From contig JAJCXX010000099.1 of the NCBI GenBank assembly GCA_029263195.1, positions 1-64,000 of the forward strand: DNA of 64,000 nt, in the 5' to 3' direction. Made by a program: the position numbers and the translations under genes. Shown here one piece after another: positions 26,364 through 52,239 of the stretch (its first letter is position 1; each line of letters starts with the position of its first letter). This DNA is from Acidimicrobiales bacterium (GTDB taxonomy: Bacteria > Actinomycetota > Acidimicrobiia > Acidimicrobiales > Aldehydirespiratoraceae). The notes beneath the pieces are model-generated. The model saw nothing but the letters and a program-made list of their open reading frames with translations, made no database searches and was not told the origin of the DNA.

Positions 26364-28064
26364 TCAGGCTCTCGACACCGGCTTGTACTTGATGCGCTGG
26401 GGACGCATGGCATCGACACCGTGCTCGCGCTTTCTGTAGTCGGCGTACTCGGTGAAGTTCCCCTCGAACCAACGCACCACCGAATCACCTTCGAAGGCGA
26501 GGATGTGGGTCGCCACCCGGTCGAGGAACCAGCGATCGTGGCTCACGATCACGGCGCAACCGGCGTAGGCATCGACAGCGTCTTCGAGTGCTCTGAGGGT
26601 GTCGACATCGAGATCATTGGTGGGCTCGTCGAGAAGCAGGACGTTGGCCCCCTCTTTCAGAACCTTCGCCAAGTGGACCCGATTGCGTTCACCTCCCGAG
26701 AGAGTCCCGACCAGTTTCTGCTGGTCGGCTCCCTTGAAATTGAACGATGCCACGTAGGCGCGTCCGTGGATCTCGCGTCCTCCGACCTCGAGATTGTCGA
26801 CACCTCCGGTGATCTCCTCGTAGACGGTCTTGTCGGCGTCGAGCGTTCGGTCCTGGTCGACGTAGCCGAGCTGAACCGTGGGCCCGATTCTCAGTGAGCC
26901 GGAGTCGGGTGTGCTGTCGGGTTCGCCCGTTCCTTCAGCGGCGTCGATGATCATCTTGAACAGAGTCGACTTGCCGGCGCCGTTGGCGCCGATCACACCG
27001 ACGATCCCGGCGGGCGGAAGTGAGAAGGAAAGATCGTCGATGAGCAGTTTGTCGTCGAAACCCTTGGAGACGCCGTCGGACTCGATCACTACGTCGCCGA
27101 GTCTGGAGTCGACCGGAATCATGATCTCGAGATCGGCCGATCGTCCGTCGGCGTCGCGTGCCTCTTCGAGCAACTTGTCGTAGGCCGCCAGCCGAGCCTT
27201 GCCCTTGGCCTGCCGGGCCTTGGGTGCCATACGGACCCATTCGAGTTCGTGCCTGAGGGTTCGCCGGCGGGCGTCGTCGGCCTTCTGCTCGGAGGCCAAG
27301 CGAAGTTCCTTCTGTTCGAGGAAGCCGCTGTAGTTGCCTTCGAACGGGAGACCCTTACCGCGGTCGAGTTCGAGTATCCACTCAGCCACATTGTCGAGGA
27401 AATAGCGATCGTGCGTGATCGCCACGACGGTGCCGGCGTAGTCCTGCAGCGTGCGTTCGAGCCAGGCCACTGATTCGGCGTCGAGGTGGTTGGTGGGTTC
27501 GTCAAGGAGCAGCAGGTCGGGCTTCGACAGCAGGAGCCGAGCCAAGGCGACCCTGCGTCGCTCGCCGCCCGACAGATTCGTGACCGGAGAGTGAGACGGC
27601 GGAGTGCGAAGGGCATCCATGGCTATCTCGACGTTGCGTTGCAGATCCCATGCCCCGATCGCTTCGATCTTGGATTCGATGCCGGCTTGGCGTGCGCCCA
27701 ACTTCTCGTAGTCGGCATCGGGATCGGACCAACCGGCCATAACGGCGTCGTATTCAGCGAGGAGGGTCGCGGCGTCACCAGCGCCGTCCATCACGTTGCC
27801 CAGCACGTCCTTCTCTTCGTCGAGGTGTGGTTCCTGTTCGAGCATCCCGACCGTGAACCCGCCGGTGAGCTTGGCGGTGCCGCTGTAGCCGTCGTCGAGT
27901 CCGGCCATGATCTTCAGCAGCGTTGACTTACCGGCACCGTTGGGGCCGAGTACCCCGATCTTGGCGCCGGGGTAGAACGCCAGGGTGATGTCCTTGAGCA
28001 CATCGCGGTTGGGCGGGATGAACCTGCCGACCTTGTGCATGGTGAAGATGAACTGTGCGGCCAT
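26364..28064 (-). CDS. ettA: Energy-dependent translational throttle protein EttA (ABC-F ATPase)
   Basis: 566 residues against about 555 in E. coli EttA. Two ABC domains are present without membrane helices: Walker A LGPNGAGKSTLL (about 38-49) and IGANGAGKSTLF, signature motifs NLSGGERRRVALARLL and TLSGGERNRVHLAKVL, and Walker B LLLLDEPTNHLDAES and VLLLDEPTNDLDVDT. The P-site-tRNA interaction linker lies between (ELEWVRMAPKARQAKGKAR). The starting VGRFIPPNRDVLKDITLAFYPGAK is EttA-specific. It regulates the first peptide bond in response to ATP/ADP. Confidence 0.95.
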   Translation of the reverse strand: MAAQFIFTMHKVGRFIPPNRDVLKDITLAFYPGAKIGVLGPNGAGKSTLLKIMAGLDDGYSGTAKLTGGFTVGMLEQEPHLDEEKDVLGNVMDGAGDAATLLAEYDAVMAGWSDPDADYEKLGARQAGIESKIEAIGAWDLQRNVEIAMDALRTPPSHSPVTNLSGGERRRVALARLLLSKPDLLLLDEPTNHLDAESVAWLERTLQDYAGTVVAITHDRYFLDNVAEWILELDRGKGLPFEGNYSGFLEQKELRLASEQKADDARRRTLRHELEWVRMAPKARQAKGKARLAAYDKLLEEARDADGRSADLEIMIPVDSRLGDVVIESDGVSKGFDDKLLIDDLSFSLPPAGIVGVIGANGAGKSTLFKMIIDAAEGTGEPDSTPDSGSLRIGPTVQLGYVDQDRTLDADKTVYEEITGGVDNLEVGGREIHGRAYVASFNFKGADQQKLVGTLSGGERNRVHLAKVLKEGANVLLLDEPTNDLDVDTLRALEDAVDAYAGCAVIVSHDRWFLDRVATHILAFEGDSVVRWFEGNFTEYADYRKREHGVDAMRPQRIKYKPVSRA

Positions 28065-28099: not shown

Positions 28100-30265
28100 T
28101 CAGTTAGCGGAGACGGCAGGATCCGCTTGGCGGCGCAGATGCTTCAGTTGCCCTTGGGTCCAACGCTTGATGTCGGACTTGTACCAGCGAGAGAACCGCC
28201 GGTCCGACGGCCCGCCGACCAGCACCGATTTGAGTCCGGGTTCGCCCATGTCGGCCACGACTCGAAGCGAGGGGGCGAAACTGGTCGGACGTCCGGCTGA
28301 GGAGTACACCTGTCCTTGGTGTGGAGTTGCTCGGCCGCCGGGAAGGGCGACCGGGCCGACGTCGAAACCCAGGAAGCCGGGCAGGCGCCCGCCGATGAGC
28401 ATGTTGGTGAGCGTGACCCGATTGTGATCCCCCCACACCCCATCGGGCGGGCTGGTCTTGTGGAGGGCTGCAGCCCAGACGCCGTCTCGCGTTCGTGATC
28501 CGAGCCATGGAGAAGTCTCGGCCCTGAGCACGTCATCGAAAACCGCATAGAAATCGACGAAGGTTCCGCTCGACTCGATCAGGTGTTGGACGACCTCAGC
28601 GCCGACCTCCTCTGTGGCGAACAACTCCATGATCAGCTGCTCATAGAAGGCTTCGAACACGACCGCCCCTCGTGAGTCGGTCGAGTAGCCGTGGTTCCAG
28701 GCCGCCAATTCGCGATGGGTCGGCGAATCTCCAAGCAGCGGCGAGAGGATCTTCATCATTTCTTCGGCCTGCATCGAGTGGACGCTGGCAAAGATCGAAT
28801 TGAATCGATCTTCATCGCAGGGGCCGGCTTCGATCATCGAGGCGATCTGACGAGCACGGAAGTCGCCCATCGACATGTTGATCGGGTTGGATTCGCCGAG
28901 ATGGTTGAGGTCGTTGTTGGCGGTGACGATGTAGCCCTCGGGTGGGTCGTAGGAATTCGGCAGCTGAGCCGATGGCATCCACCCCTGCCAGTCGTAGGAG
29001 GGATCCCATCCCGGCATCGGAGTGAATCCGGTAGCTCCGGCGTTTCGTACCGGCACCAGCCCCGACATCTGGAATCCGATGTGGCCATCGGTGTCGGCCA
29101 TCACCCAACTGAACGCGATCTCGAAGTCACGCACCGTCTCCATTACTTCGGCGACCGATCGGGCCGACCAGAGACCGATGGTCGCGTTCAGAGAGCTGGC
29201 TCCACCCTCGGCCGGGGCCCATCGGGTGGTCAGGTACTTACCGGCCTTGTTGGGGTCGCCATCGAGCACACCGTGGTCGTTCTCGTAGAACACGACATCG
29301 ACCGGATCGCCACCCTTGACCTTGATCGTCTCGGTGCGTTCACGAAACTCGACCCAGCCGTCCTCTCGTCGGAAGCAACCGTCGCGGCAGTCTTCGATCC
29401 AGGAATCGACGGCATCAACGAACGCGTAGGTTGCTCCTATCGAGACGTTGTCATTTCGTCCGACCACGATCCCGGGAAGGCCCGGCATGTTGGCCGTGAC
29501 GACCGTGTCGTCCGGCAATTCGATCACCTGTTCCACCCAGATGCACGGAAGCCGATTGATCTCGAGATGAGGATCGTTGGCCATCAGGGCGTTTCCGCTC
29601 ACGCTGCGCGAGGGCGACACCGCCCAGTTGTTGGAGGAGATGAAACGTCGGTCCGAAATGCCCCACTTGACCGTGTCGGGGACCTGTCGGGCGCCTCCGA
29701 GTTCGATCGTCTCGATGGTGGGTCTGTCGAACGGGCTCAGCCGACCCGGGAACAACGACTCGAGTTGGTCATCGGTGACTCCGCCCTTCACCATCTCGAC
29801 GAACAGATGCTCGATCTCGCCCTGGGATTGTGCAAGAGACACGTAGCCGGTGGTTCGCATCAGGAGGAGAGTGTCCGCGATGGTCCACGGATCGGGTTTG
29901 TATCGAAGCAGTCGGAACTCCCACGGACGGGCGATCTCGAAGCGGGCGTTGACGCCTCGGCAGTAGGCGGCGTAGAGCGACTGGGCTTGTGTGGTCAGCT
30001 TCGAGATCTCGTTCTCGGTGTTGCCCGACCAGTTCATTCGCCGAAAAAAGGTATCGATTTCGAGTGATTCGGCGCTGGCATCGAGGCATTCGGAGACCCG
30101 GCCTTGTCCGAGGAGTCGGGTCAGACACATCTGAATCGGTCGGTCGAGTGCATGGCAATAGCCCATGCCCCAGTACGCGCCTTCGAGATCGTCGGCTTCT
30201 ATGTGGGGAACGCCGAACTCGTCGCGTGACAATCTCACACCAGTTGGTGTCGGCGCCTTCTTCAT
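28100..30265 (-). CDS. Penicillin-acylase-family Ntn hydrolase, cytosolic form
   Basis: 721 residues from ATG 30265; the frame is open far upstream but only as a shadow of the NYN gene. The pattern is alpha chain (residues 1-210), then the autocleavage and nucleophile site [10 protein letters not shown] with Ser about 211, then the beta chain with [16 protein letters not shown] and NNDLNHLG. Family enzymes hydrolyse amide bonds of beta-lactams, acyl-homoserine lactones or similar. Unlike periplasmic penicillin acylases there is no signal peptide: it opens [18 protein letters not shown] directly. It follows the NYN protein after eight bases, so they are probably co-transcribed. Confidence 0.9.
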
Positions 30266-30273
30266 GGCCTCGC

Positions 30274-31659
30274 TCAGCTTCTTGTCTTGGCCGGCTTCTT
30301 TGCCGCCGTTTTCTTGGTGGGCGGCCGCTTGGCCGAGGTCTTCTTCGCCGGCGCCCTCTTGGCTGCTGGCTTCTTGGGAACTGCCTTCTTGGGAACTGCC
30401 TTCGTGTTGGCTCCGGTCTGTTTGGCCCGGGTCTTCTTCTTGGCCTTTGCCTTCTTGGGAGTTGCCTTCTTGGCGACCGACCGCTTGGCCGCCGCTTTCT
30501 TGGTGACCGGCTTCTTGGCCGCCGGCTTCTTGGCGACCGACCGCTTGGCCGCCGCCTTCTTGGTGACCGGCTTCTTGACAACCGGCTTCTTGGCCGCCGA
30601 CCTCTTGACGGCAACGGTTTTGGACGGAGTCTTCTTGGATGCGGTCTTCTTGACGGCATCGCTTCGGGCGGGTTTGCGGGTCTTCGCTGGGGTCGGCCCC
30701 GTAGCCTTGGTTCGACCTGAGCCGCTGGCCGCAACGAACTTGGTCAGTCCCACATCGATACCGAGGCGAGACTCGTCGAAACCGTGGACGACGAAGTCTC
30801 CGGTATCGCCGAGTGTGACTGCATCGCGGGCTCGCCGTGGTGCAGGATTGCCGAGCAATCGGAGCGGCATGTAGACCGTGACATTGTCGACCGAGCCGTA
30901 GGCGCCGTGGGACGAGAATCGCTCGATGATTGCCGCGACGGTGCTCCCCTCGGGATAGTCGTCGCGGAATCTTTTCCATGCCGCTCGCGTGTTGGAGTCG
31001 GTCTTGGCCTTCCGGCTCGATGCCGTCTTCTTCTTGGGTGGGGCCGACTGGGTCTCGGGCCCAACGGACTTCTTGGGCGGGCGTGTCGGCTTGGCGGCCG
31101 CCTTCTTGGCCGAAGTGGAACGCTTGGTCGGAGGCCTCTTGGAAGCGGTCTTCTTCACCCGGCGGGCGTCGCCCACCTTCGGATTGGCGGGCGCCCGCTC
31201 GACGACGGTCGATTCCCGAACGGCTCGTCGACTGACCGGGCCCCGAACCGGCGAACGAGGCACATAGATCCATCCGACCCCCGGGATCGGCTTGCCGCCG
31301 ATGAGCCGCCCATCGTCGAACAGCCAGTCGTAAGTCCCGTGAAACTCCTGAAATGAGTCGTTGGAGAGCACCACGGCGTTGGCTCGGTCGGCGATCTGGA
31401 GAATGAAAGCGTCGCCGCGGCCGATCACCCCGGCCGGTGGCGTGATCACCTCTCCGTCGTCGATGGCGGCACGCGCGGCATCGCGTTCGTGCTTCTCGAC
31501 ACGATGTTCGAATGTGGCGTCGACGATCACGGTCACGTGTTCGAAATCGTTCTCCTCGATGAAGGTCGTAACCGCCTCGTCGAGCTGAGCGAGACTGGGG
31601 GTGGTACGTCCTTCAGTGGCGATATTCGACCCGTCCACGACGGCATAACCCTTTTGCAT
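30274..31659 (-). CDS. NYN-domain (Zc3h12a-like) RNase fused to an S1-like domain and a histone-H1-like tail
   Basis: 461 residues from ATG 31659; TTG 31671 is an alternative. Residues about 4-133 form a NYN/PIN-like nuclease: [13 protein letters not shown] (metal-site Asp), [29 protein letters not shown] and [11 protein letters not shown], which resembles the Zc3h12a-type RNase family. A K/P/S-rich linker (about 140-220) leads to an S1-like beta-barrel (about 228-290): [38 protein letters not shown]. The last about 160 residues are repetitive Lys/Ala/Pro like histone H1 or HupB tails ([18 protein letters not shown]). It is expected to bind RNA or nucleoid DNA and cut RNA. Confidence 0.85.
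30481..30600. repeat. 60-bp tandem duplication inside the H1-like tail
   Basis: 30481-30540 and 30541-30600 align base for base with six mismatches (54 of 60 identical). The period is 20 codons, so the duplication preserves the frame. Confidence 0.85.
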
Positions 31660-31708
31660 TCCGTTAGTCAACCACGCTGGAGCTGTCGGCGGCCGGATCC
31701 GACAGGCC

Positions 31709-31720: not shown

Positions 31721-32344
31721 GTGATAAAGGCAGCACTGTTCGATTTTGGTGGCGTGATCCTCTCCAGTCCGTTCGACGCCTTCAACGCCTACGAGCGCGA
31801 AACGGGACTGCCCACCGACACCATCAGGCGACTCAACTCGACCAATCCCGACGACAACGCTTGGGCCCGACTCGAACGAAATGAGCTCGACGCTGGTGGA
31901 TTCATCTCCGAATTCGAGCGTGAGGCCAGGGAGTTCGGTGTGATCCTCGACGCCCAACGAATACTCGCCGGCCTGCGCGGAGAGATTCGTCCGGCGATGG
32001 TCACAGCGGTCGAGAGATGTGGTGACCGACTCGCCACGGCGATGCTCACCAACAATTTTCGCGATCCGTCCACCATTGGCACTGACCCCGCGATCGATCG
32101 GATCTACGGCATGTTCGACGTGGTTGTCGAGTCGAGTGTCGTCGGTGTCCGCAAACCCGAGGTGAAGTTCTACAAGATCGCCTGCAAGGCGATTGGAGTC
32201 CAACCCGAGGAATGCGTATTCCTCGACGATCTCGGGGTGAACCTCAAGCCGGCGAGAGCAATGGGCATGACAACGATCAAGGTTCAGGACCCCGCGGTTG
32301 CGGTCGCCGAACTCGAATCGGTGGTGGGTTTCCCGCTCGGCTAG
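31721..32344 (+). CDS. HAD-superfamily hydrolase (ACAD10/epoxide-hydrolase N-domain-like)
   Basis: 207 residues, GTG start. HAD motif I reads ALFDFGGVILSSPF: the nucleophile Asp is kept but the second Asp (DxD) is Gly, a substitution shared with a HAD branch related to ACAD10/11 and to epoxide-hydrolase N-domains. Motif II is MLTNNF, motif III the Lys of GVRKPEVKFYKIA, and motif IV VFLDDLGVNLKPA. Loss of the acid/base Asp predicts little ordinary phosphatase activity or an unusual substrate. It is divergent from the NYN gene and convergent with kgd. Confidence 0.88.
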   Translation: MIKAALFDFGGVILSSPFDAFNAYERETGLPTDTIRRLNSTNPDDNAWARLERNELDAGGFISEFEREAREFGVILDAQRILAGLRGEIRPAMVTAVERCGDRLATAMLTNNFRDPSTIGTDPAIDRIYGMFDVVVESSVVGVRKPEVKFYKIACKAIGVQPEECVFLDDLGVNLKPARAMGMTTIKVQDPAVAVAELESVVGFPLG

Positions 32345-32349
32345 TCCGT

Positions 32350-35300
32350 CTATCCGGCGGGGGTGAACACGCGATCGAGCAGCTCGGTGAGCTCTTGGGC
32401 GTGGACCTTGGCGCTGCCCGTGGCCGGGCTTCCCGACTCGAATCGGCTCACCCTGCGGATGTCGTGGGTCTCGCCGTGGGCTTCGTAGAGCCGACCCTTG
32501 ATCGAGTTCCATGGTCCCATGTTCTCGGGCTCCTCTTGGAGCCACACGATCTCGGAAGCTCCGGGATATCGGCCCACTTCGGCGGCCACGGCCTCGTAGG
32601 GCCAAGGGAAGAGCTGCTCGACTCGGGCGATCGCGGTGGGGGCCTGGCGTTTCTCGCGTTCGTCCATGGCGTCGTAGGCCACCTTGCCGCTGCAGAAGAC
32701 GATCTGGCGAACCGACGCAGGGTCGGAGACGCTGGTGTCGACCAACAACTCCTCGAAGGTCCCTGTCAGCAGCTCGTCGATCGACGATCGGGAATTCTGA
32801 TGCCGGAGCAGCGACTTCGGTGTGAACACGACCAGAGGCGTCGGAGGCTTCTGCATGGCTTGGCGGCGCAGTAGATGGAAGAGCTGAGCGGCAGTGGTGG
32901 CGTTGCAGATCTGCATGTTGTCCTCGGCCGACAACAGAAGGAACCGCTCGATGCGTGCTGACGAATGCTCAGGCCCCTGGCCCTCGTAGCCGTGGGGCAA
33001 CAACATCACCAGACCGGAGTCCTGATTCCATTTGTCTTTCGAAGCCACGATGAACTGGTCGATGATGATCTGGGCGCCGTTGGCGAAGTCGCCGAATTGC
33101 GCCTCCCAGACGACCAGTGCGTCCTGGTTGGCGACCGAGTAACCGAACTCGAAACCCAGAGCGGCGTACTCCGACAGAATCGAGTCGTATATCCAAAGGC
33201 GCGCTTCTGAGCCGGTGAGGGTCGCCAAGGGAACGTGTTCGGCGCTCGTCTCGTAGTCGACCAGAGTGGAGTGACGGTGAGAGAAGGTGCCACGGCGCGA
33301 GTCCTGGCCGGCGATGCGGATCGATGTCCCGTCGAGCAGCAGCGATCCGAGAGCCATGGCCTCGCCGAGGGCCCAGTCGACCTCGCCCGAGTCGAACATC
33401 TTGTCGCGGGTCACGAACTGGCGAGCCAATTTGGGATGAGTTGTGAAGCCGTCGGGGGTCGATCCGAGAGCGTCGTAGATCCGGTCGACCGTGGAGCGAT
33501 CGATGGCGGTTTGCAAGTGGGGGAGCACGCCCGTGGCCGGAGATTGGGGTAGGGCTCTGGTCGACGGGTCGGGCGCTTGCTCACGTGTCTCGTCGAGAGC
33601 GAACTGCAGTCGGGCTTTGAAATCAGCCAGAGCGTCCTCTTCCTCCGCGGGAGTGAGATCGCCTCGCTTCACCAGCGACGCGGTGTACTGCGCTCGAACC
33701 GTGGGCCTGGCGTTGATTCGCCGGTACATCTCCGGCAGCGTGTAGCTCGGGTCGTCGCCCTCGTTGTGGCCGTGTCGGCGATAGCACACCATGTCGATTA
33801 CGACGTCTTTGTGGAATTGTTCCCGGTAGGCGAACGCCCACCTGGCAACCTGGACGCAAGCTTCGGGGTCGTCGCCGTTGACGTGGAATATCGGCGCCTG
33901 GATCATCTTGGCGACATCGGTCGGGTAGACGCCGGTGCGGGCCATGTCGGGGGTGGTGGTGAACCCGAGCTGGTTGTTGATGATGAGGTGAACGGTGCCT
34001 CCGACTCGGTAGCCGTGGACCTGTGAGAGGTTGAGGGTCTCGGCCACCACGCCCTGGCCGGCGAACGCCGAATCGCCGTGGATCTGCAGCGGTAGCACCG
34101 GGAATGGGGGATGACCGGCGTCGGGGTCGATGGCGTCGAGTCGGGCACGTGTCATACCGACCACGACCGGATCGACGGCCTCGAGGTGCGACGGGTTGGC
34201 TGCCAACTCGACAGGAATCGTTGCTCCGCCGCGACTGGTGAATTCGCCGGTCTGGCCGAGGTGATACTTGACGTCGCCGGATCCTTGGATCATGCCGTCG
34301 CTGATGCTGCCCTCGAACTCGTTGAAGAGCTGGCCGTAGCGCTTCCCGACGACGTTGACGAGCACGTTGAGTCGCCCCCGGTGCGCCATTCCCATCACGC
34401 ACTCGACGATTCCTGCATCGGCCGCTACGTCGAGCAGCGCGTCGAGAAGCGGGATGGTGCTCTCGGCGCCTTCGAGTCCGAATCGTTTCTGGCCCACGTA
34501 CTTGGTGCCGAGGAAGGTCTCCAACGCCTCGGCTGCGTTGAGACGGTGGAGAATGTGTTGTTGCTCGTCGGGAGAGGTGGATCGGGTGGCTCCTTCGACC
34601 ATCTCCTGTATCCAGCGCTTCTCCACCGGGTCCTGGATGTGCATGAACTCGATGCCCACGGTGCGGCAGTAGGCATCTCTCAGAACTCCGAGAAGGTCTC
34701 CGAGCGACATCTTGTGGTGACCGCCGACCGGGGCGTAGCCGCCGGCGTGCCCGCCGGTGAGGAACTCGCGGTCGAGATCCCAGATGGTGAGTCCGTAGGT
34801 GGCCGGGTCGAGTTCGGCGTGCATCTTCGGCTCGTTGACCCGCAATGGGTCGAGGTCGGCGATGAGATGGCCGCGCACTCGGTGCATGTTGATGAGGGAG
34901 TTGACCTGGGCCTGCTTTTCGAGCATGCCGGTCTCGCGGTCTACCGGGTTGACATCACGGTGCCACTTGACCGCTTCGTAGGGCACACCCAAGGATTGAA
35001 AGATCTCGTCGTAGAAGTGGTCTTCGCCCAGTAGTAGTTCGTGAATCTTCTTGAGGAACATGCCCGACTCAGCACCCTGGATGATGCGGTGGTCGTAGGT
35101 CGAGCTGATGGTCATGACCTTCGATACGCCCAGTTCGGCGAGCTTGGCGGGATCGGCGGCCTGGTACTCGGCGGGAAAGGCGATCGATCCAGCCCCGACG
35201 ATCAGCCCCTGGCCGGGCATGAGGCGTGGGACCGACTGGCGGGTCCCTATTGTGCCGGGGTTGGTGAGCGAGACCGTGGTGCCGACGAAGTCGTCGGGGC

Positions 35301-35988
35301 TGAGCTTGTTGGACCTGACCTTGGTGATGAGTTCCTCGTAGGCGGCGTGGAAACCGGCGAAGTCGAGGGTGTCGGCGTCTCGAATGCACGGGACCATCAA
35401 GGTTCGCGATCCGTCGGACTTCTCAACGTCGACCGCGATCCCGAGCCCTACATGCTCGTGTCTGATGAGCCGTGGCTCGCCGTCGGGGCCGTGGACGAAC
35501 GAGTTGTTCATCGCCGGTATCTCCTCGGCAATGGCGCGCACGATCGCGTAGCCGATGATGTGGGTGAACGAGACCTTGCCGCCCTGCTTGCGGGTGAGAT
35601 AGCCGTTGATGACCTTGCGGTTGATTTCGAGCAGCTTCGCGGGGACCTCACGGAAGCTGGTGGCGGTGGGAACGTCGAGGCTGGCTTCCATGTTGGTGAC
35701 GATCCGTGCTCCGACCCCGCGGATCTGGTCGCCCGGGGCCTCGCCGACCCGCGAGGCCTGAGCGGCTACTGCGGGCTGAGGCTCGGTTGACGGGGGCGAT
35801 ACAACCGTGGCGCTTGTATCGATGGTTGTGCGTCGGTATTCGGTAGCCGGCTGCTGGACTGCGTTCTCGAACTCGGCGCGCCACAGGGGATCGACGGACT
35901 CTGGATCGGCAGTCCACAGGGCCCGCATTTCATCGACGAGCCAGGCGTTTGGTCCGAGGTCGGCTGCGGGGTCAACTGCTTCTGGCAT
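32350..35988 (-). CDS. kgd: Multifunctional 2-oxoglutarate decarboxylase / dehydrogenase E2-E1 (Kgd)
   Basis: 1212 residues, close to mycobacterial Kgd (about 1230). Order: an E1 N-terminal helix (NAWLVDEMRALWTADPESV), a linker, an E2 succinyltransferase-like catalytic domain ending in TYDHRIIQGAESG (about 298-302), then the thiamine-diphosphate E1 with HRGRLNVLVN (about 533), GDSAFAGQGVVAETLNL (about 637) and LIINNQLGF. No lipoyl domain is present, as expected for Kgd, which works with a separate dihydrolipoyl carrier. It feeds the TCA cycle at 2-oxoglutarate. TACAAT six bases before ATG 35988 gives a leaderless promoter, divergent from xthA. Confidence 0.96.
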   Translation of the reverse strand: MPEAVDPAADLGPNAWLVDEMRALWTADPESVDPLWRAEFENAVQQPATEYRRTTIDTSATVVSPPSTEPQPAVAAQASRVGEAPGDQIRGVGARIVTNMEASLDVPTATSFREVPAKLLEINRKVINGYLTRKQGGKVSFTHIIGYAIVRAIAEEIPAMNNSFVHGPDGEPRLIRHEHVGLGIAVDVEKSDGSRTLMVPCIRDADTLDFAGFHAAYEELITKVRSNKLSPDDFVGTTVSLTNPGTIGTRQSVPRLMPGQGLIVGAGSIAFPAEYQAADPAKLAELGVSKVMTISSTYDHRIIQGAESGMFLKKIHELLLGEDHFYDEIFQSLGVPYEAVKWHRDVNPVDRETGMLEKQAQVNSLINMHRVRGHLIADLDPLRVNEPKMHAELDPATYGLTIWDLDREFLTGGHAGGYAPVGGHHKMSLGDLLGVLRDAYCRTVGIEFMHIQDPVEKRWIQEMVEGATRSTSPDEQQHILHRLNAAEALETFLGTKYVGQKRFGLEGAESTIPLLDALLDVAADAGIVECVMGMAHRGRLNVLVNVVGKRYGQLFNEFEGSISDGMIQGSGDVKYHLGQTGEFTSRGGATIPVELAANPSHLEAVDPVVVGMTRARLDAIDPDAGHPPFPVLPLQIHGDSAFAGQGVVAETLNLSQVHGYRVGGTVHLIINNQLGFTTTPDMARTGVYPTDVAKMIQAPIFHVNGDDPEACVQVARWAFAYREQFHKDVVIDMVCYRRHGHNEGDDPSYTLPEMYRRINARPTVRAQYTASLVKRGDLTPAEEEDALADFKARLQFALDETREQAPDPSTRALPQSPATGVLPHLQTAIDRSTVDRIYDALGSTPDGFTTHPKLARQFVTRDKMFDSGEVDWALGEAMALGSLLLDGTSIRIAGQDSRRGTFSHRHSTLVDYETSAEHVPLATLTGSEARLWIYDSILSEYAALGFEFGYSVANQDALVVWEAQFGDFANGAQIIIDQFIVASKDKWNQDSGLVMLLPHGYEGQGPEHSSARIERFLLLSAEDNMQICNATTAAQLFHLLRRQAMQKPPTPLVVFTPKSLLRHQNSRSSIDELLTGTFEELLVDTSVSDPASVRQIVFCSGKVAYDAMDEREKRQAPTAIARVEQLFPWPYEAVAAEVGRYPGASEIVWLQEEPENMGPWNSIKGRLYEAHGETHDIRRVSRFESGSPATGSAKVHAQELTELLDRVFTPAG

Positions 35989-51402: not shown

Positions 51403-52239
51403 GTGGCCACAGCAGTCTTCTTCCACGCTCATCCCGACGACGAATCGATCTCGACGGCGGGCACGATGATGTTGGCTTCGCGTGCTGGGCATCGGGTCGT
51501 GCTCGTCACCGCCACCGATGGCGCCCTCGGCGAGGCCAGTCCGGACTCAGTGCCGGCCGGCTCCAACCTCGCTGCGGTGCGGGCAGTCGAACTGAGCCGG
51601 GCCGCCGAGGTGATTGGCGTCGATCGAGTGGTGATGCTGGGCTACCCCGACTCCGGGATGGAGGGGGCGTCGAGCAATGAGGTCGCCGGATGTTTCTGGC
51701 AGACGCCGGTCGATGAAGCAGCCCAACGTCTCGCCGACGTTCTCATCGAGGAGCGCGCCGATGTTCTCACCATCTACGACTCCCACGGCAACTACGGGCA
51801 TCCCGATCACATCCAAGTCCATCGGGTGGGTGCGAAAGCGGCCGAGATGGTGGATGTGGGTCGCGTTTACGAATCAACCATGAATCGCGACCATCTGCGG
51901 GCACTGGTCGATGAGGCTTCATTCGCCGAGATCGATGTCGGCGAAGACCTCGAGGCTCGCCGCGAGGAGATCCGAGAGTCGAAGATGGGGACGCCGGCAG
52001 CGATGATCACCCATGGGGTCGATGTGTCGTCGGTCATCGATCTGAAGCGCTCTGCATTGGCTGAGCACCGCTCGCAGATCACCGAGGAGTCGTTCTTCAT
52101 GGCCCTCCCGCCCGAGGCCTTCGTTGCGGCATTCGGCACCGAATGGTTCGTCCGACACGGCTCAGCCGGCGGCGGACCTCCCTATTCCGACGACCTGTTC
52201 GGGTCCGACGACTCGATCACCGGCCCGGAGAACCCATGA
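51403..52239 (+). CDS. PIG-L/LmbE-family deacetylase (second copy)
   Basis: 278 residues from GTG 51403. The zinc motif FFHAHPDDESISTAG is followed by VVLVTATDGALGEASPDS and VMLGYPDSGMEGAS, and by the second metal motif YGHPDHIQVHRVGAKAAE. The TDGALGEAS block is nearer to general PIG-L/MshB-like enzymes than to Mca, which is present separately at 9.3 kb. The N-acetyl sugar or mycothiol-precursor substrate is undetermined. It overlaps the next gene by four bases (ATGA). Confidence 0.87.
   Translation: MATAVFFHAHPDDESISTAGTMMLASRAGHRVVLVTATDGALGEASPDSVPAGSNLAAVRAVELSRAAEVIGVDRVVMLGYPDSGMEGASSNEVAGCFWQTPVDEAAQRLADVLIEERADVLTIYDSHGNYGHPDHIQVHRVGAKAAEMVDVGRVYESTMNRDHLRALVDEASFAEIDVGEDLEARREEIRESKMGTPAAMITHGVDVSSVIDLKRSALAEHRSQITEESFFMALPPEAFVAAFGTEWFVRHGSAGGGPPYSDDLFGSDDSITGPENP

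Follow-up and report, generated by a model that had tools for sequence, protein, structure and literature searches.

A putative NYN-S1 endoribonuclease family of Acidimicrobiia with a histone H1-like tail that about half of its members may also translate on its own

The window, meaning the whole stretch of 64,000 nucleotides that was analysed (contig JAJCXX010000099.1 of an Acidimicrobiales bacterium, assembly GCA_029263195.1), holds a gene in which a nuclease domain, an S1 domain and a Lys/Ala/Pro-rich (KAP) tail are joined in one protein. The gene, its parts and its neighbours are as follows.

26364..28064, minus strand: EttA, the ABC-F translational throttle (TIGR03719, 877 bits, over the cut-off of 807)
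28100..30244, minus strand: gene of the penicillin amidase family, lying between ettA and the NYN gene (PF01804, 483 bits)
30274..31659, minus strand: NYN-S1-KAP gene (P0001), 461 amino acids, with its ATG at 31659 and its stop codon at 30276-30274
30277..30723, minus strand: histone H1-like Lys/Ala/Pro tail, residues 313-461 (149 residues; Pfam HC2)
30652..30654, minus strand: Val336 (GTC), the counterpart of an internal start codon in relatives
30724..30993, minus strand: S1 (OB-fold) RNA-binding domain, residues 223-312 (family profile, predicted structure)
30994..31239, minus strand: Lys/Arg-rich linker, residues 141-222, predicted to be disordered except for a helix at 141-151
31240..31659, minus strand: NYN (Zc3h12a/Regnase-type PIN) nuclease domain, residues 1-140 (profile, predicted structure, invariant residues)
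31666..31674, minus strand: upstream motif TGGTTGACT, common to many relatives and lying close before the native start
31721..32344, plus strand: HAD-family hydrolase, divergent neighbour (TIGR02247)
32350..35988, minus strand: multifunctional 2-oxoglutarate dehydrogenase/decarboxylase of the Kgd type, upstream neighbour (NF008907)

Translation of the NYN-S1-KAP gene could alternatively start from a TTG at 31671. The original prediction had read the protein as a nuclease, a K-rich linker, an S1-like barrel and a histone H1-like tail, and this order was borne out at the coordinates above. When we searched for the same domain order elsewhere, it proved to be kept in relatives across Acidimicrobiales, and therefore a chance fusion or an assembly artefact can be excluded. 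The original prediction did not include an internal start of the tail in relatives, lineages that lack the tail, or KAP tails on unrelated proteins of the same genome, all of which are described below.

The N-terminal domain matches the profile PF11977 (RNase_Zc3h12a) over residues 6-107 with 37 bits against a cut-off of 23, and the same profile was present in all 28 relatives that were scanned. In an alignment of 60 homologues, D9, N12, D47, D83 and D101 are invariant, and alignment with ZC3H12C places D9, D83 and D101 at three of the four catalytic aspartates of Regnase, the fourth being replaced by Gly82. The glycine counts against activity, yet a CRISPR-associated NYN enzyme that is reported to have three clustered conserved aspartates is active, and RNA cutting is lost in its D13A mutant (PMC11346440). 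The predicted fold is PIN-like, and a Foldseek search with it retrieved the PIN domains of ZC3H12/Regnase proteins at about 1e-6. Thus, the proposed Zc3h12a-like nuclease with acidic metal residues was confirmed as far as fold and residues go, and the protein, described earlier as an RNA-degrading enzyme, would be expected to cut RNA. It shares with the Zc3h12a/Regnase NYN ribonucleases (PF11977; ZC3H12A-C, KHNYN) the fold, the DGSN and SND motifs and three of the four aspartates; however, those proteins carry a CCCH zinc finger or a KH domain, whereas this bacterial protein carries S1 and polycationic segments.

The middle domain is a true S1 domain rather than merely S1-like: PF00575 was matched in 13 out of 14 family members that were scanned (no Pfam S1 match is obtained with the window copy by itself), a family profile searched against the PDB hit several repeats of bacterial ribosomal protein S1 (4e-34), and Foldseek matched bS1 repeats at about 1e-6. 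It corresponds to a single S1 repeat, closest to those of bS1, but differs from ribosomal protein S1 in being one repeat fused to a nuclease. The structure predicted with AlphaFold2 from an alignment of 60 sequences has a mean pLDDT of 83.6, with the NYN and S1 blocks mostly above 90 and the linker below 60, so that the model consists of two confident domains, a NYN and an OB fold, joined by the disordered Lys/Arg-rich linker that had also been foreseen. This domain content argues for a putative endoribonuclease acting on single-stranded or ribosome-associated RNA, in which the NYN domain would be the catalytic part and the S1 domain would hold RNA or dock at the ribosome. NYN domains of PRORP were also among the Foldseek matches, and S1 and basic tails would suit structured RNA; it is thus conceivable that the enzyme matures stable RNA, processing tRNA or rRNA in the manner of protein-only RNase P with S1 and tail as RNA-binding additions. 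However, the PRORP matches were weaker than the Regnase ones, and several genera within its own family do without the gene, which would be odd if the maturation step were essential. We regard this as the least probable of the readings considered here.

Homologs of the NYN-S1 protein were found in 42 of the 61 genomes searched among relatives. A search of 296 genomes taken from the phylum gave full-length matches only in the same order and in one genome of the same class, and the other matches were rpsA-like S1 repeats. A scan of a sequence collection returned at least 575 related stretches, of which 80 were kept, overwhelmingly from Acidimicrobiia by title. Three MAG records titled Bifidobacterium breve (L048, L053, L089) are evidently misnamed Acidimicrobiia, since their sequences nest within the NYN-S1 family tree. 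The NYN and S1 domains are constant across the family, and the tail is of variable length, being absent altogether from six genes, five of family f23 (L112, L113, L121, L122, L124) and one of f28; in place of the tail, some of these have a basic linker, such as L112, L113 and L121, with Lys-rich repeats between NYN and S1. Read from these sequences, the NYN-S1 protein is a vertically inherited Acidimicrobiia family and the KAP tail is its variable part. The gene as a whole is absent from several genera of the window's own family, and is therefore not essential.

In most relatives' loci, the Kgd gene and the divergent HAD gene lie upstream, as in the window. Directly downstream of the NYN gene, ettA is found in 33 loci and exonuclease III (xthA) in 27. 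The presence of the NYN gene and of EttA correlates both over the 61 genomes (37/5/6/13, Fisher 2e-5) and at the level of 34 genera (p 0.004), and joint deletion of neighbours may contribute to this correlation. As a partner gene, EttA points to translation, and we infer from this link that the enzyme acts at or near the ribosome. Rae1/YacP is a ribosome-associated NYN endonuclease of another NYN family that has neither S1 nor a tail. Its likeness to the present protein lies in the proposed mode of action, that of a NYN nuclease which would work on translated mRNA. The earlier suggestion of a defence effector was not supported: no PADLOC defence model matched the NYN-S1-KAP gene, its neighbourhood (kgd, HAD, EttA, xthA) is a conserved housekeeping one, and its descent lies within one class.

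The tail, residues 313-461, is rich in Lys, Ala and Pro as had been described, and it matches Pfam HC2 (PF07382) with 49 bits against a cut-off of 40, a score that is largely explained by low-complexity composition; unrelated proteins match too. KAP tails are also found on unrelated proteins of the window's genome, a GAPDH (L141, C-terminal tail, G000:C79, about 51412-51537) and a TraR/DksA-type protein, and therefore the tail need not be RNA-specific. Since they occur on such different proteins, it is probable that these basic segments increase the affinity for polyanions generally. In the NYN-S1-KAP protein, the disordered polycationic linker and the tail would likewise favor polyanions such as rRNA, mRNA, DNA or polyphosphate, and might tether the enzyme to the nucleoid or to ribosomal RNA, as proposed earlier. 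The tail resembles bacterial H1-like proteins (HC2, AlgP) in its Lys/Ala/Pro composition, but differs from them in being the C-terminus of an RNase and, in relatives, in also following an internal start.

Several further repeat proteins were noted in these genomes. TraR/DksA-type proteins whose long N-terminal KAP extensions range from tens of residues to several hundred are a common feature of genomes in this family (e.g., L139, L142, L143, L145, L176, L177, L178), valS is a further KAP-tailed gene, and one protein of the window's genome (L140, G000:C75) is made of AIPSN/ALPAS pentapeptide repeats. In one NYN-S1 relative (L026), the KAP repeat of the tail shifts frame midway, from KKAPAKK to EEGLCPEGRQ-type repeats, and the frame stays open.

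At the junction of S1 and tail, many relatives show one of two protein patterns, AEEA-x-M/V-A-x-KK or TRR/TRS-xxxx-V-A-T-KK. These patterns arise because the DNA at this point consists of a Shine-Dalgarno (SD) sequence followed by a start codon, as in gccGAGGAGGcaccc ATG gca, acaAGGAGactgaca GTG gcc and aatAAGGAGGcacag GTG gca. The frequency of start codons rises to a peak of 18-20% at 3-4 codons ahead of the K-block, compared with about 2% elsewhere. Counted over 106 non-redundant genes, the head of the block is M, V or L in 72, and 59 of these 72 use ATG, GTG or TTG; 43 also carry an SD, and all 43 SD-bearing block heads are start codons. This count of SD plus start lies well above that in 500 synonymous-codon shuffles within each gene (mean 14.7, maximum 21), and such an SD precedes only 2.6% of the 1,779 other in-frame start codons. 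With a relaxed SD search, an SD and an in-frame start head the tail in 51 of the 106 genes, using GTG in 33, ATG in 16 and TTG in two; L125, a probable false positive, was left out of this set. One example is the internal ATG of Aquihabitans sp. G128, at NZ_CP077604.1:1473154 on the minus strand of that record, from which a short product of 145 amino acids beginning MAVTKKAPAKK is predicted.

These internal starts have further marks of genuine gene starts. GC3 drops to 0.14 at the second codon and 0.33 at the third, as at genuine starts, and the region is less folded than its shuffles (z of +0.77 +/- 0.12, against +0.22 +/- 0.17 for a control 25 codons upstream). The spacing from SD to start is mostly 6 or 9-10 nt. 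The tree implies at least six changes of start codon, at least five of SD phase and at least 11 of spacing, and the signal was kept throughout. Related sequences are not independent, and parsimony requires 12 label changes on the tree, six of them forced by well-supported branches.

It might be argued that the full-length protein is the sole product, that the KAP tail is a promiscuous targeting tag grown by repeats, and that the SD-like DNA is a by-product of the AEEA and TRR/TRS residues. The KAP tails on GAPDH and TraR/DksA-type proteins would fit this explanation, as would the 49 tailed genes without the signature, the window's included. However, the reading frame passes through the same SD DNA in three different codon phases (37/12/2), which vary between clades, so that the encoded residues differ (EE, RR/RS, KE); Val at SD-bearing sites is always encoded by GTG and never by GTC; and both the second-codon GC3 and the count of SD plus start, which exceeds that of every synonymous shuffle, would be left unaccounted for. 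We therefore consider a sole product in all members unlikely. These comparisons show that, in about half of the relatives, selection acts on the DNA sequence of the SD and the internal start itself, and we infer that a short, free H1-like protein is really made from them.

The fusion frame is kept as well, since the stretch from S1 to the internal start holds no stop in 2,265 codons of the 51 genes, against 37 and 73 in the other frames, a contrast that is partly conditional on the choice of ORF. A stop between S1 and the KAP block was seen in no gene. Complete predicted short products have a median length of 112 amino acids (roughly 40-210 residues overall), with 41% K+R, 0.3% D+E and a mean pI of 11.9, a value close to 12 that they have in common with bacterial H1-like proteins.

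Other arrangements that could supply a separate tail were looked for and rejected. There was no positioned TANNNT signal of an internal promoter before the internal start. No gene that was read is split, with a separate KAP ORF after a stop, and tail-less relatives run straight into the next gene. A stand-alone short protein in genomes without the NYN gene was not found either, the KAP-rich ORFs inspected in three of them (G004, G008, G019) being of TraR/DksA type. In the Aquihabitans clade, GC-rich inverted repeats (e.g., gctCCCCgccGGGGagc) lie just before the internal SD (L065, L084, L086, L056).

The internal start was also looked for in the window's own copy, and is absent. Its tail has no in-frame ATG, GTG or TTG anywhere, and no SD precedes Val336 (GTC, 30654-30652), the counterpart of the internal start. 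A 90%-identical sister (L002) lacks the internal start too, and a relative of the same genus (L003) carries acaAGGAGactgaca-GTG, that is, SD and start. The claim of two products therefore concerns the relatives, and the window copy is predicted to be the single-product version.

Before the native start, by about 6-16 nt, many relatives across families have the motif TGnTTGACT. Across the genome, TTGACT shows no enrichment ahead of ATGs (58 occurrences, with 55 for a reversed-pattern control), which rules out a general start-proximal signal of this genome. Since it is not enriched elsewhere, the motif looks specific to the NYN-S1-KAP gene, and it may be a regulator site or an unusual promoter of this gene.

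The closest precedent for two products of one nuclease gene is known from rpn, where an internal in-frame start is used to produce a short C-terminal antitoxin; the short product is folded and dimerises (PMC10327210). The likeness is that a nuclease gene has its C-terminal part translated separately as well, which here is predicted. By analogy, the short KAP product might inhibit or titrate the full-length nuclease, in the manner of a toxin-antitoxin or defence module. However, rpn encodes a PD-(D/E)XK DNase and a folded, dimerising product, whereas here we have a putative NYN RNase in a housekeeping locus and a disordered polycation, for which no dimerisation fold is expected. The lack of a PADLOC match and the descent within one class also speak against such a module, as do the many relatives that keep the nuclease without the short product, some of them without any tail, and we find it quite improbable.

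We thus favor the reading that Acidimicrobiia have a putative endoribonuclease family in which about half of the relatives of the window's gene also translate the KAP tail alone, with the window copy as a single-product version, and we place its probability at about 0.62. In those relatives, the internal SD with ATG, GTG or TTG would yield a free H1-like protein, so that one gene would encode both the tailed RNase and its histone-like part as a separate protein. The short product may compact DNA, coat polyphosphate or compete with the nuclease; for the second of these, AlgP, which acts on polyphosphate granules, offers an analogy (PMC9239181). More tentatively, and with some doubt on our side, many Acidimicrobiia might have a housekeeping two-in-one RNase gene whose products bind the same polyanions and compete for or share a scaffold (ribosome, nucleoid or polyphosphate), with their ratio setting the access of the nuclease to RNA, beside the throttle EttA.

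Each element is known already, whereas the combination and the hidden second gene appear to be new; in the open-licence literature, we found no description of such a NYN-S1 protein, of H1-like tails in Acidimicrobiia, or of a gene of this type with an internal start. If true, standard annotation would overlook a histone-like protein hidden within an RNase gene, in an environmental class that is widespread and hard to culture, and the expression of a nucleoid-type protein could in this way be tied to that of an RNA-decay enzyme. A second kind of nuclease would then join the genes-within-genes known from rpn.
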